Part shown: positions 4,204 to 10,142 of the stretch, piece after piece
How positions within the stretch are numbered: position 1 is the first letter of the stretch
How the letters are laid out: every line of letters starts with the position of its first letter
Assembly: GCF_007747215.1 (NCBI RefSeq)
Contig: NZ_CP036273.1
Span: 5,502,322 to 5,566,321, forward strand
Direction of reading: 5' to 3'
Length of the DNA stretch: 64,000 bases
Source: Urbifossiella limnaea
GTDB lineage: Bacteria; Planctomycetota; Planctomycetia; Gemmatales; Gemmataceae
Translations under genes and position numbers: made by a program
Notes under the pieces: generated by a model
What the model saw: only the letters and a program-made list of their open reading frames with translations
What the model was told of the DNA's origin: nothing
Databases searched by the model: none

Positions 4204-4311
4204 TTGGCCACAAAACGACACGAAGAGACACAAAACGGCAGACCGGGCAAAGCCTGAGTTTAGATTTGACTTTGTCTTCCTTTTGTGTCTTTTCGTGCCT
4301 TTTGTGGCCAA
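4204..4311. repeat. Palindromic A-tract element, copy 2
   Basis: A 108-bp inverted repeat between der and the AAA+ gene. Both ends read TTGGCCACAAAA and continue with 10-bp words of the form nnCACrAAAA. The loop sequence differs from copies 1 and 3. Confidence 0.75.
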
Positions 4312-4401
4312 CCTGTCCTGGCTTCGCTCCTGCCCCTTCCGCGAACCCGCGGCTACAATTCCCTGTCGTACCCTCATTCTTGCCGCCCGCCCCCGGACGC
4401 C

Positions 4402-5574
4402 ATGCCCACGCCGCTCGACCTGTACACGGCCGACCACAAGACGCTGCTCGCCGCCACCGCGGCCGCCGCCGGCATCGATGACCCCGTCGCCGTGCAACTC
4501 GACGCCTACTTCCACCCGGTGCTGACGAAGGCCACCCGCGGGCCGATCGTTCCGGTGAACGGCGTCCTCGTCCGCGACTGGGACCGCGACCACACGAAGA
4601 CGTGGCCGGGCATCAAGTTCGGCGCCCGCGTCTACACCCTCGGCGGCGTCCGCTTCGCCCGCTGCTGCTGCACCTTCCACTCCGACCTGTACGACTACGC
4701 CTACGACTTCGTGGCCGTGGACCGCAAGGACTACCTCAAGCTGTTCCGCCTCGCGGTGCAGGCGAAGCGCGAGGCGGCCAAGCCGGGGCTGCCGCCGGTG
4801 CTGCCGCCGGATCACCTTGAAACGCTCCGGCAGAACACCCTCGGCTACCTGGACCGCACGAACCTCCGACGCATCAAGGAACTCGGCGGCCGGGCCAAGC
4901 GCGGCCTGCTTCTGACCGGCCCGCCGGGCAACGGGAAAACGAGCGCCTGCCGCTGGCTGTGGCAGGAGTGCGTGCGGCTGCGCTACGAGTACAAGATGGT
5001 GACGCCCGACGCCTACCGCGCCGCCCGCAGTTCGAGCAACCCGGTGCAGGCGGTGAAGGAACTGTTCACCGTGGACCGCCGCGGGCTGGTGTTCTTCGAC
5101 GACATGGACATCGCCCTGCGCGACCGCAACACCGTCCACGAGACGGACGACCAGGCGGTGTTCCTGAGCGCGCTCGACGGCATCGAGGTGAACGAGGGCG
5201 TGGCCTACGTGTTCACCACGAACTGCTCGCTCGACCTGATCGACCCGGCGTTCAAGCGGCCAGGGCGGATCGACCTGGTGCTCCACTTCCACGCCCCGGA
5301 CCCGGGCCTGCGGCGGGCGCTCATCGCCCGCTGGCACGCCGACGTACTGGCCGGCATTGACGTGGACGCGGCGGTGCGCGAGACGGCCGGGTACAGCTTC
5401 GCCGAGGTGGAGGAGCTCAAGAACCTTCTCATCCTGAACTTCATCGAGGGGAACGGGTGGGACTGGGCGTGGGCGACGCAGCAGTTCGCCCTCAACCGCC
5501 AGGAATTGGCCAACCGGGCGTCGTCGCGGCACGTCGGGTTCGGCGTCGCGGAGGCGGCCCGGAACGGATTCTGA
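4402..5574 (+). CDS. AAA+ ATPase (CDC48/FtsH-like single ATPase module)
   Basis: This 390-residue cytosolic ATPase has Walker A GPPGNGKT at 173-180, Walker B VFFDDMD (acidic pair at 233-234), a sensor segment FTTNCSLDLIDPAF and a GRID box after it, followed by a small helical lid domain. The first 140 residues are a family-specific N-terminal domain, probably for substrate recognition. No peptidase, second ATPase ring or transmembrane segment is present. Its client is unknown. The ATG at 4402 is used; the frame extends upstream into the repeat element, which is unlikely to be coding. Confidence 0.85.
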   Translation: MPTPLDLYTADHKTLLAATAAAAGIDDPVAVQLDAYFHPVLTKATRGPIVPVNGVLVRDWDRDHTKTWPGIKFGARVYTLGGVRFARCCCTFHSDLYDYAYDFVAVDRKDYLKLFRLAVQAKREAAKPGLPPVLPPDHLETLRQNTLGYLDRTNLRRIKELGGRAKRGLLLTGPPGNGKTSACRWLWQECVRLRYEYKMVTPDAYRAARSSSNPVQAVKELFTVDRRGLVFFDDMDIALRDRNTVHETDDQAVFLSALDGIEVNEGVAYVFTTNCSLDLIDPAFKRPGRIDLVLHFHAPDPGLRRALIARWHADVLAGIDVDAAVRETAGYSFAEVEELKNLLILNFIEGNGWDWAWATQQFALNRQELANRASSRHVGFGVAEAARNGF

Positions 5575-5682: not shown

Positions 5683-6534
5683 ATGTCCTCGCCGTTCAAC
5701 GGCTTCCTCGCGCGCCTCCGGCCGCGGCACTACGGCCGCCGGCCGCCGCTCGTCCTGCTCAACGGCCTCGCCGAGCAGGCCGAGTCGTGGTACCGCAACC
5801 GCGAGTTCTGGAGCCGCTACTTCGAGGTGCTCGCCCCCAACATCCTGGCCTACGAGGGCGACACCCTCCACCACCGCATCCGGACCCGGGAACCCATCAC
5901 CGTCGAGTACCTCGTCTGCGAGCTGCACACGTACCTGACGCGGTTCGTCGAGACGCCGCCGTACCACCTCGTGGCCAGCAGCCTCGGCGGCAAGGTGGCC
6001 GTCGAGTTCGCCGTGAGGTACCCGGATCTCGTGGACCGCATCGTACTCCTGTGCCCGTCCGGGATGGGCGACGAGGAGAAGCTCCCCATCATGGAAGGCC
6101 TCGGCGGCCGCGGCGCCGACGCCATGGTGAAGAGCGTCTTCTACAACCCCCGGAAGTGCGCCGACTACGACGTGCTGGAGTACTACCAGGCCAAGTTCGA
6201 CTCCCGCCGGTGGAAGCTCGGGTTCGTCAAGGCCGTCCGCGGCACCCTGGAGCACACCGTCCGCGACAAGCTGAAGGACGTGGCCGCGCCGACACTGCTG
6301 GTGACCGGCGAGGAGGACAAGGTGTGCGACCCGGCGGTGGCGCGGGACGCGGCGAAGGAGTTGCCCAGCGGGCTGTTCCTGGCGCTGCCGAAGTGCGGCC
6401 ACGCCCCGCAGATCGAGAAGGCGTGGAAGGTGAACCGCCTCGTCGCCCACTTCCTCACCAGCGCCGACCCGACGACCACGCCGTCGTGGTCGACGCTGTT
6501 CCTGACCAAGCCCCCCCGCCCGCGAGCGAAGTGA
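5683..6534 (+). CDS. Alpha/beta-hydrolase, first gene of the GH3 operon
   Basis: A 283-residue alpha/beta-hydrolase fold protein. The nucleophile elbow is HLVASSLGGK (Ser100 is the likely nucleophile). The acid is in VTGEEDKVCDP and the histidine in KCGHAPQIEK. A cap-like insertion lies at about 130-210. Substrates of this large family are mostly esters or thioesters and cannot be read from the motifs. The stop overlaps the next start as TGATG (6532-6536), which implies translational coupling to the methyltransferase and makes a shared lipid or small-molecule pathway likely. Confidence 0.85.
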   Translation: MSSPFNGFLARLRPRHYGRRPPLVLLNGLAEQAESWYRNREFWSRYFEVLAPNILAYEGDTLHHRIRTREPITVEYLVCELHTYLTRFVETPPYHLVASSLGGKVAVEFAVRYPDLVDRIVLLCPSGMGDEEKLPIMEGLGGRGADAMVKSVFYNPRKCADYDVLEYYQAKFDSRRWKLGFVKAVRGTLEHTVRDKLKDVAAPTLLVTGEEDKVCDPAVARDAAKELPSGLFLALPKCGHAPQIEKAWKVNRLVAHFLTSADPTTTPSWSTLFLTKPPRPRAK

Positions 6535-7136
6535 TGCCCCCGACCGACGCCCCCGCCGGCCCGGACTGGTGGCTGATGCTCCGCGCCTTCTGGCGGCGCG
6601 GCCGGCAGGTGGCGTCGTTCGCCCCCAGCTCCCGCGCCATGGCCCGCGCTATGCTCCGCGGCATCGACTTCGAGAGCACCCGGTGCGTCGTCGAGCTCGG
6701 CGCCGGCACCGGCCCCGTCACCGCGGAGGTGGCCGCGCGGTTGCGGCCGGGGACGACGTTCGTGGCGGTCGAGCTCGACCCGGTGCTGTGCGCCCGGCTG
6801 AAGGCCCGCTTCCCGCACCTGGACGTGGTTCAGGCCGACGCGGCCCGCCTCGACGAGTTGCTCGCCGGGCGCGGCGTCCGGCAGGTCGATCACGTACTCA
6901 GCGGCCTGCCGCTCCCGTCGTTCCCCGCGGCGGAACGCGATTCTCTGCTGGCGGCGGCGGCGCGGGTGCTGAGCCCGGCCGGTACGTTCCGCCAACTCAC
7001 CGTGATGCCGTGGGTCTATTACCCACTCTACCGCCGCTCGTTCGACGACGTGCGGTTCCACTTCGTGGCCGCGAACCTGCCGCCCGGCGGGGTGTACGTG
7101 TGCCGCGGCTACCGCGGGGGCGCCGGAAGTACTTGA
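6534..7136 (+). CDS. PmtA/OlsG-like SAM-dependent N-methyltransferase
   Basis: A 200-residue class I methyltransferase of the phospholipid N-methyltransferase type. It shows the family opening FWRRGRQVASFAPSSRAMAR, motif I VELGAGTGPVT, an acidic post-I residue in VAVELDP, and LSGLPLPSFP, the PmtA signature region. Such enzymes methylate the amine of phosphatidylethanolamine or, in the planctomycete OlsG case, of ornithine lipids. Which head group is used here cannot be told. The ATG at 6534 is preferred; the frame is open far upstream only because it runs antisense-free through the hydrolase gene. It is fused to its neighbours by TGATG overlaps on both sides. Confidence 0.82.
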   Translation: MPPTDAPAGPDWWLMLRAFWRRGRQVASFAPSSRAMARAMLRGIDFESTRCVVELGAGTGPVTAEVAARLRPGTTFVAVELDPVLCARLKARFPHLDVVQADAARLDELLAGRGVRQVDHVLSGLPLPSFPAAERDSLLAAAARVLSPAGTFRQLTVMPWVYYPLYRRSFDDVRFHFVAANLPPGGVYVCRGYRGGAGST

Positions 7137-8707
7137 TGCCGCGCACGTCGTTCCTGGCCCCGCTCGCCGACAGCCGCCTCGTCCGCCGCGCCGCCGACGC
7201 CGGATTCGTCCGCTACGCGCACGCGCGCGCCGCGTACCTCGACCGGGTCGACGCCGGCCGGCTCCAGCGCGCCACGCTGATGAGCCTCGTCCGCCGCGCC
7301 CGCGACACCCGCTTCGGCCGCGACCACGACTTCGGCCGCATCACGTCCGTCGCCGACTTCCAGGCCCGCGTCCCCGTCCGCGGCTACGAGTTCTTCTGGG
7401 ACACGTACTGGAAGCCCACCTTCCCCCGGCTCGACGACGTGACGTGGCCGGGCCGGCTGCCCTACTACGCACTGTCCAGCGGCACCACGAGCGGCGCCAC
7501 GAAGTACGTGCCGGTGTCGCGCGAGATGCTGGCCAGCAACCGCAAGGCGGCGCGCACGACCGCCGCGCTGTTCCGACACTCGCGCCCCGAGGCGCGGACG
7601 CTGACGGGGAAGATTTTCTTCCTCGGCGGCACCACCGACCTGCGCCCGCTGAGCGACGGCAGCCGGGCCGGCGACCTGAGCGGCATCGCCTTCCGCGAGG
7701 TCACCGACGTGGTGCGCCCCTACGTGTTCCCGCCGCCGCCGCTCGCCGCCCTCACCGACTGGGACGAGAAGCTCACCCGCGCCGCGGCGTTGTCCGTCCG
7801 CGAGCGGATCACCACGGTCAGCGGCGTGCCGGCGTGGCTGCTGACGCTCTTCGACCGGGTGAAGGAGGCGACCGGCGCCAGCACCGTCGCGGAGGCGTGG
7901 CCGGCCCTGCGGCTCGTCGTCCACGGCGGCACGAGTTTCGACCCGTACCGCGCCCTGTTCCGCCGCGAGATCGGCGACGACCGCGTAAGCTTCTGCGAGG
8001 TTTACGCCTGCTCGGAGGGCTTCGTCGCCGCCGAGGACCCGCGCCACGGCCTGCTGCGGGTCGTGCCCGATCACGACGTGTTCTTCGAGTTCGTGCCGGT
8101 GGACCAGCTCGCGCAGCCGTACCCGGAGCGGCACACGCTGGCGACGGTGGAGCCCGGCGTGCCGTACGCGGTGGTGCTGACGACGTGCGCCGGCCTGTGG
8201 GCGTACCTGCTCGGCGACACGGTGGCGTTCGAGAGCCGCAACCCGCCCCTGCTCCGCTTCACGGGGCGCACCAAGTTCTTCCTGTCGGCGTTCGGCGAGC
8301 ACCTGATCCAGGAGGAGGTGGAGCGGGCGGTCGCGGCGGCGGCGCGGGCGGCGGCGGCGGACGTGCCGGAGTACCACGTCGGCCCCGAGTTCCCGCCCGA
8401 CCCGCGGACGCCCGGCCGGCACCTGTACCTGGTCGAGTTCGCCGGCGCGGCGGCCGACGCGGCCCGGTTCGCGGCCGACATCGACGCCGAACTGTCCAGG
8501 CTGAACGAGGACTACGCGGCGCACCGGGCCGGCGACCTGACGATGCGGGTGCCGCGGGTGGCGGCCGTGCGGCGCGGCGGGTTCGCGGCGTGGATGAAGT
8601 CCCGCGGCGCGTTCGGCGGCCAGCACAAGGTGCCGCGGATGGACAACACCGGGGCGCGGACCGCGGAGCTGGCGGAGTGGTTCGCGCGGGAGGGGTGGCT
8701 CCTCTGA
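7136..8707 (+). CDS. GH3-family acyl-adenylate amide synthetase
   Basis: This 523-residue protein belongs to the GH3 family of the ANL-like adenylating enzymes. Plant members activate a carboxylate with ATP and join it to an amino acid. Visible motifs are the P-loop SSGTTSGATKY (114-124), HGGTSFDPY, YACSEGFVA (motif 2, with the ATP-contacting SEG), LLGDTV and the C-terminal lysine-rich GGQHKVPRM. Bacterial GH3 proteins are largely uncharacterised. The gene is the last of three coupled genes with a hydrolase and a lipid-type methyltransferase. That context suggests an acyl-amide product whose amine is methylated, but no substrate is proven. Confidence 0.85.
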   Translation: MPRTSFLAPLADSRLVRRAADAGFVRYAHARAAYLDRVDAGRLQRATLMSLVRRARDTRFGRDHDFGRITSVADFQARVPVRGYEFFWDTYWKPTFPRLDDVTWPGRLPYYALSSGTTSGATKYVPVSREMLASNRKAARTTAALFRHSRPEARTLTGKIFFLGGTTDLRPLSDGSRAGDLSGIAFREVTDVVRPYVFPPPPLAALTDWDEKLTRAAALSVRERITTVSGVPAWLLTLFDRVKEATGASTVAEAWPALRLVVHGGTSFDPYRALFRREIGDDRVSFCEVYACSEGFVAAEDPRHGLLRVVPDHDVFFEFVPVDQLAQPYPERHTLATVEPGVPYAVVLTTCAGLWAYLLGDTVAFESRNPPLLRFTGRTKFFLSAFGEHLIQEEVERAVAAAARAAAADVPEYHVGPEFPPDPRTPGRHLYLVEFAGAAADAARFAADIDAELSRLNEDYAAHRAGDLTMRVPRVAAVRRGGFAAWMKSRGAFGGQHKVPRMDNTGARTAELAEWFAREGWLL

Positions 8708-8792: not shown

Positions 8793-10142
8793 ATGCTCAC
8801 CCTACTCACCCCCGACCGCGACCCGCTATCCCGCCGCGCCTGGCTCCGCGCCGGCGCCGTCGGCCTCGGCGGCCTCGCGCTCCCGCAGTTGGCCGCCGCC
8901 CGCCCCGCCGGCCGCGCCAAGTCCGTCATCGTGTTCGGCCTCCTCGGCGGCCCGTCGCAGCACGACACTTGGGACCCAAAGCCCGACGCCCCCGCCGAGG
9001 TCCGCGGGCCGTTCGGCAGCATCGCCACCCGCACGCCCGGCCTTCGCGTCGGCGAGTTGATGCCGCTCACGGCACAGCTCACCGACAAGCTCGCCGTGCT
9101 GCGGGCCGTGGCCACCGACGACAACGCCCACTCGTCGAGCGGCTACCAGATGCTGACCGGCGTGCCGCACCAGCCGCCGAGCCAGGAGAACGCCACCCCG
9201 CGGGCGCCGAACAACGCCCCGAGCCTCGGCAGCATCGTCCGCTACCTGCGGCCGGCGCCGGGCAAGCTCCCCGCGGCGGTCACGCTGCCGGAACACATGT
9301 GGAACGACGGCGGCTTCACGTGGCCCGGCCAGGACGCCGGGCTGCTCGGCCGGAAGCACGACCCGTGGCTTGTGCCGTGTGACCCGAGCAACGCCCGCTT
9401 CAAGATCGACTCGCTGGCCGCGCCGGACGAAGTGCCCGCGGCCCGGTTGCGCGACCGCCGCGGACTACTCGGCGGTCTCGACCGCTTCCCGACCGGGGCG
9501 GAGTCCGAGTCGTACGACGCGGGCGTGCGGAAGGCGTTCGAATTGGTGGCGAGCGGGGCGGCGCGCGAGGCGTTCGATCTGAACCGCGAGCCGGCGAAGC
9601 TCCGCGAGCGGTACGGGAACTCGCGGTTTGCCCAGAGCTGCCTGCTGGCCCGGCGGCTGGTCGAGGCCGGCGTGTCGCTGGTGCAGGTGAACTGGACGCG
9701 GATCGCCAACCTGCCGAACCAGGGCGGCTGGGACACGCACGCGAAGCACAACGACGCCGCGAAGGACTTCCTGATGCCGATGATGGACCGCGCCTTCTCG
9801 GCGCTCGTGTCCGACCTGGAGGTGCGCGGCCTGCTCGACGAGACGCTGGTCGTGTGGTTCGGGGAGTTCGGCCGGACGCCGCGGTTCAACGGCAACGCCG
9901 GCCGCGACCACTGGGGGCACGTGTTCTCGCTGGCGCTGGCCGGCGGCGGCGTCCGCGGCGGCGTGGTGTACGGCGCGAGCGACAAGCACGGCGCCCGCCC
10001 GGCCGACGGCCGCGTGGCGCCGCGCGACCTGATCGCCACCGTGCTTCACCTGCTGGGGCTCCCGCCCGAAGCGGAGCTGCGCGACACCGAGGGGCGGCCG
10101 TTCCCGGCGAGCCGCGGCGAGGTGATCCGCGCCGTCGTCTAA
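8793..10142 (+). CDS. DUF1501 protein with Tat leader (sulfatase-like fold)
   Basis: A 449-residue exported protein. The leader has a twin-arginine motif SRRAWLRAG (13-21) and a hydrophobic stretch, followed by a DUF1501 domain with VFGLLGGPSQHDTWDPK, MLTGVPHQPPS, GGWDTHAKH and VVWFGEFGRTPRFN. DUF1501 resembles alkaline phosphatase/sulfatase folds and is greatly expanded in planctomycetes, usually beside a DUF1549/1553 or DUF1592-type partner. No such partner is next to this copy. Its TAA overlaps the TAG of the convergent metalloprotease gene by three bases. Confidence 0.88.
   Translation: MLTLLTPDRDPLSRRAWLRAGAVGLGGLALPQLAAARPAGRAKSVIVFGLLGGPSQHDTWDPKPDAPAEVRGPFGSIATRTPGLRVGELMPLTAQLTDKLAVLRAVATDDNAHSSSGYQMLTGVPHQPPSQENATPRAPNNAPSLGSIVRYLRPAPGKLPAAVTLPEHMWNDGGFTWPGQDAGLLGRKHDPWLVPCDPSNARFKIDSLAAPDEVPAARLRDRRGLLGGLDRFPTGAESESYDAGVRKAFELVASGAAREAFDLNREPAKLRERYGNSRFAQSCLLARRLVEAGVSLVQVNWTRIANLPNQGGWDTHAKHNDAAKDFLMPMMDRAFSALVSDLEVRGLLDETLVVWFGEFGRTPRFNGNAGRDHWGHVFSLALAGGGVRGGVVYGASDKHGARPADGRVAPRDLIATVLHLLGLPPEAELRDTEGRPFPASRGEVIRAVV

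Follow-up and report, generated by a model that had tools for sequence, protein, structure and literature searches.

In Singulisphaera acidiphila, trimethylornithine lipid is synthesized by the products of an operon, Sinac_1601-1600-1599, that encodes OlsI, OlsG and OlsH, and both biochemical and genetic proof of this synthesis has been published (PMC12493201, J Biol Chem 2025). The GH3-like enzyme OlsH, which depends on ATP and Mg2+, produces N-acyl-ornithine and accepts lysine and arginine as minor substrates, OlsI is an O-acyltransferase with an alpha/beta-hydrolase fold, and together OlsH and OlsI form ornithine lipid in vitro (PMC12493201). The target of the methyltransferase OlsG, which was first described in 2015 (J Biol Chem 2015, 290:15102), is the delta-nitrogen of ornithine lipid (PMC12493201). 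Trimethylornithine lipid was lost in an olsH mutant of S. acidiphila, and replacement of S115 of OlsH with alanine abolished activity (PMC12493201). The same study reported that OlsH and OlsI are always encoded in one common operon in planctomycetes, included Gemmata palustris and Fimbriiglobus ruber in its tree, presented a structural model of OlsH, and raised the possibility of other amino-acid substrates for non-planctomycete OlsH homologues. Trimethylornithine lipid has also been chemically identified in Gemmataceae that include Limnoglobus roseus (PMC7828035).

The DNA analyzed here, referred to as the window, is a stretch of 64,000 nt that belongs to the 7.8 Mb single-contig genome of Urbifossiella limnaea. 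A first-pass annotation of the window described a set of three genes that it took to be previously undescribed. The set is OlsI-OlsG-OlsH; the operon in the window is a copy of the system already described in S. acidiphila and is not new.

Results

Arrangement of the ols operon in the window

The operon consists of three genes on the plus strand. The first, olsI (P0001, positions 5683..6534), encodes a 283-aa protein with an alpha/beta-hydrolase fold that is predicted to be an O-acyltransferase adding the second fatty acid to lyso-ornithine lipid. The second, olsG (P0002, 6534..7136), encodes a putative ornithine-lipid N-methyltransferase of 200 aa, which is OlsG-like as judged by tree and context. 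The third, olsH (P0003, 7136..8707), encodes a 523-aa GH3-family protein that is predicted to act as an ATP-dependent N-acyl-ornithine (lyso-ornithine lipid) synthetase. A TGATG stop/start overlap is present on the plus strand at the olsI-olsG junction (6532..6536) and at the olsG-olsH junction (7134..7138), and in both the A of the ATG start codon is also the last base of the preceding stop codon. Coordinates and junctions were as the first-pass annotation had given them. Pfam domains identified were an alpha/beta-hydrolase domain in P0001, a generic methyltransferase domain in P0002 and a GH3 domain in P0003. Because all three have strong family matches, P0001, P0002 and P0003 are regarded as genes and not as chance open reading frames. 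Upstream of the operon lies a gene for an AAA ATPase (window positions 4285-5574) and downstream lies a gene for a DUF1501 protein (8793-10142), each without a family match pointing to a lipid role.

Conservation of gene order and spacing

Of the 102 Gemmatales genomes searched, 49 had OlsG matches scoring 200 bits or more, and gene arrangements in these 49 were tallied by hand. The hydrolase, methyltransferase and GH3 genes were contiguous on one strand in 40 of the 49. Six genomes (G045, G046, G047, G048, G060 and G094) carried an OlsI-OlsG pair on one contig and OlsH on another, and inspection of the OlsH regions of G060 and G094 revealed that OlsI and OlsG were absent beside OlsH. These six genomes indicate that the operon can split. 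In a further three (G018, G021 and G030) the genes were located at contig ends. All 30 Isosphaeraceae loci fetched had all three genes on one strand. The gene order, on which the first-pass annotation had staked its reading, is conserved in both Gemmatales and Isosphaeraceae. The locus of L. roseus (L073) has the same I-G-H order as the window and a methyltransferase of the P0002 type. In seven Gemmatales genomes (G039, G040, G095, G096, G098, G100 and G101), OlsI adjoins OlsH without a strong OlsG match, and an unmethylated ornithine lipid is predicted in these seven for that reason.

Spacing between the genes was not conserved. Among the loci inspected, TGATG was found at both junctions only in this genome, and in same-genus relatives the methyltransferase and GH3 genes are separated by 73-321 nt. 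The TGATG at the first junction recurs in some same-genus relatives (L007, L008 and L024), and elsewhere spacing varies widely. Since the TGATG overlaps are not a conserved feature of relatives, the fixed stoichiometry of the three products that had been read from them does not generalize and was dropped.

The methyltransferase P0002 is OlsG-like

Family names were taken from the June 2026 release of NCBIfam. The top match of P0002 was OlsG (NF041658) at 209 bits, compared to 77 bits for PmtA and 31 bits for KsgA, and the OlsG score falls below the curated cut-off of 350 bits. None of the 102 Gemmatales genomes, L. roseus among them, passed this cut-off, and 18 of 149 genomes passed it in a class-wide sample. 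OlsG scores fell into three bands: Isosphaeraceae scored 297-372 bits, operon copies from Gemmatales lay almost all at 208-257 bits, and nearly everything else reached 185 bits or less. The cut-off divides even the Isosphaeraceae. The NF041658 model seems to have been built around part of the Isosphaeraceae, and its 350-bit cut-off looks too strict.

P0002 is 47% identical to Sinac_1600, compared to 29-34% for PmtA-like proteins. A maximum-likelihood tree of 34 methyltransferase rows placed P0002 among the operon methyltransferases of the Gemmataceae, beside the Isosphaeraceae OlsG group, whereas the RsmA of this genome and the PmtA-like proteins lay apart. A starred group (96/87) comprised six of the seven PmtA-like rows, the branch uniting all Gemmataceae rows was weak (78/17), and row L028 was not firmly placed. 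An identity as an rRNA dimethylase (RsmA/KsgA), the grouping that would have counted against the first-pass annotation, was rejected both by score (31 bits against a cut-off of 171) and by the tree, which places P0002 with OlsG instead. The real RsmA of this genome is encoded elsewhere (C1:1443540-1444355, 228 bits). Score and tree also ruled out PmtA as the identity of P0002. A separate gene for a PmtA-like methyltransferase is present at G000:C1:153159-153719 and scores 73 bits against the PmtA model, for which the cut-off is 250. P0002 is thus designated OlsG-like by phylogeny and context and is not claimed as a formal member of the NCBIfam family.

We consider it very improbable that the low OlsG score represents a real change in specificity, with a head group or methylation state in the Gemmataceae that differs from that of S. 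acidiphila (e.g., a lipid with methylated lysine, or a head group that is incompletely methylated). It is likewise very improbable that the pathway is the same but that a divergent Gemmataceae methyltransferase performs only one or two methylations, or also acts on phosphatidylethanolamine, so that the end product is not trimethylornithine lipid. Such divergence would fit the score of P0002 below the OlsG cut-off, the altered specificity that 47% identity to OlsG allows, and the weak support (78/17) for the fork joining the Gemmataceae rows. However, trimethylornithine lipid is produced by Gemmataceae that have the same gene, such as L. roseus, and the genome encodes its PmtA-like methyltransferase at a distinct locus.

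P0003 matches OlsH

P0003 scored 697.7 bits against the OlsH model (NF052613), above the curated equivalog cut-off of 620, and is 51% identical to its counterpart at the S. acidiphila locus (L089). The P0003 motif SSGTTSGATK (residues 114-123) has T114SGTTQGATK123 as its aligned counterpart in S. acidiphila OlsH. Within alignment A1, S115 of P0003 is invariant in 16 homologues, and S293 is likewise invariant. Further nucleotide-binding motifs of P0003 are VYACSE (289-294), which contains S293, and motif III, GLWAYLLGD (353-361). The best solved match of P0003 is JAR1.

The specificity of this putative synthetase for ornithine is assumed on the basis of homology. That P0003 instead uses a different amino acid, leading to a methylated lysine lipid or a similar product, is more doubtful still than a divergent methyltransferase. 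Non-planctomycete homologues may accept different amino acids, and the minor lysine and arginine activity of S. acidiphila OlsH points in the same direction (PMC12493201), but P0003 scores at the level of an OlsH equivalog, its operon partners match those of S. acidiphila, and ornithine lipids are known in the same family.

P0001 matches OlsI

P0001 scored 420.7 bits against the OlsI model (NF052614), above the curated cut-off of 385, and is 46% identical to S. acidiphila OlsI over 253 aa. Membership of the OlsI family also entails that OlsI and OlsH are encoded in one operon, which is true in the window and in most relatives. The candidate triad of P0001, S100/D212/H240, was invariant in 55 of 55 homologues, and this conserved Ser-Asp-His triad supports a putative serine acyl-enzyme mechanism for OlsI. 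The first-pass annotation had suggested a pathway for a small-molecule conjugate, with release or editing of the product as the task of the hydrolase, a role compatible with the hydrolase fold and intact triad of P0001 but one to which we give almost no weight, given that P0001 is a specific OlsI match above the cut-off and that its S. acidiphila counterpart has O-acyltransferase activity.

Other GH3 gene pairs

A second GH3 gene in this genome (C1:7417043-7418731) lies downstream of another alpha/beta-hydrolase gene on the same strand, and the pair spans G000:C1:7415926-7418734 (L001:318-3126). The second GH3 protein was rejected as an OlsH (123 bits against the cut-off of 620), and its best solved match is JAR1. 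Of 119 genomes sampled from the class Planctomycetia, 90 have a relative of the second GH3. In 13 of the 14 relatives sampled, the GH3 gene is preceded on its own strand by a hydrolase gene, either immediately or at a distance of up to about 860 nt, and the 13 that keep the pair include G050 and G099, which lack OlsH.

Outside the planctomycetes, 51 OlsH-like GH3 loci from Alphaproteobacteria and others were examined (L091-L142 except L104). No olsG match and no same-strand OlsI beside the GH3 gene were found at these 51 loci, and the only hydrolase matches were two weak ones on the opposite strand. A gene of the penicillin-amidase family, an assignment for which PF01804 was tested on one member, was present on the GH3 strand in 39 of the 51 loci and just upstream in nearly all of these (e.g., L118:2479-6497). 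It is possible that the GH3 enzyme and the penicillin amidase are a make-and-cleave pair for N-acyl amino acids. A limited search found no literature on this pairing, which may still have been reported. Both this pair and the second GH3/alpha-beta-hydrolase pair look like fresher leads than the ols operon.

Discussion

We put at about 0.93 the probability that the operon in the window makes an ornithine lipid with a methylated nitrogen, trimethylornithine lipid being the likeliest product. The core of the first-pass annotation, in which an OlsG-type methyltransferase and an amide-forming GH3 enzyme serve the synthesis of a methylated acyl-amino-acid lipid from one operon, agrees with the family matches and with the published pathway. 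We infer the product in U. limnaea by analogy with S. acidiphila, in which each step has been experimentally shown. In the proposed pathway, OlsH would use ATP and Mg2+ to adenylate a free fatty acid and would then link this acid to ornithine at the alpha-amino group, yielding N-acyl-ornithine (lyso-ornithine lipid). OlsI, with its intact Ser-Asp-His triad, would attach a second acyl group to the first fatty acid at its hydroxyl, and OlsG would carry out up to three SAM-dependent methylations of the terminal (delta) nitrogen.

No match to the OlsB-type N-acyltransferase (PF13444) was found in this genome, so the classical OlsB route appears to be absent and was rejected on that ground. OlsH-OlsI is probably the sole ornithine-lipid route of this genome. 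The membrane lipid of this pathway is phosphorus-free, and the olsI-olsG-olsH order is spread widely across Gemmatales and Isosphaeraceae. Sequence alone was enough to confirm in the window a pathway that was published in 2025. The pathway carries a prediction: OlsI-OlsH lineages without OlsG should make unmethylated ornithine lipid.

The OlsBA and OlsF pathways share their end product with OlsI-OlsG-OlsH, yet their enzymes are unrelated in sequence (PMC12493201). OlsH resembles the plant GH3 acyl-acid amido synthetases such as JAR1 in fold and adenylation chemistry. In contrast, sequence similarity between them is low, and the plant enzymes act on hormones whereas OlsH acts on fatty acids and ornithine. 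PmtA and P0002 are related (77 bits), and both are SAM-dependent lipid N-methyltransferases, although they fall on opposite sides of the tree and the substrate of PmtA is phosphatidylethanolamine. The closest system is the S. acidiphila operon. The window differs from it in its Gemmataceae sequences, in the stop/start overlaps at both junctions, and in a methyltransferase that scores under the curated OlsG cut-off. The three families, their order and their strand are all the same, identities are 46% for OlsI, 47% for OlsG and about 51% for OlsH, and the OlsH of the window retains the essential serine and the nucleotide motifs of its S. acidiphila counterpart.
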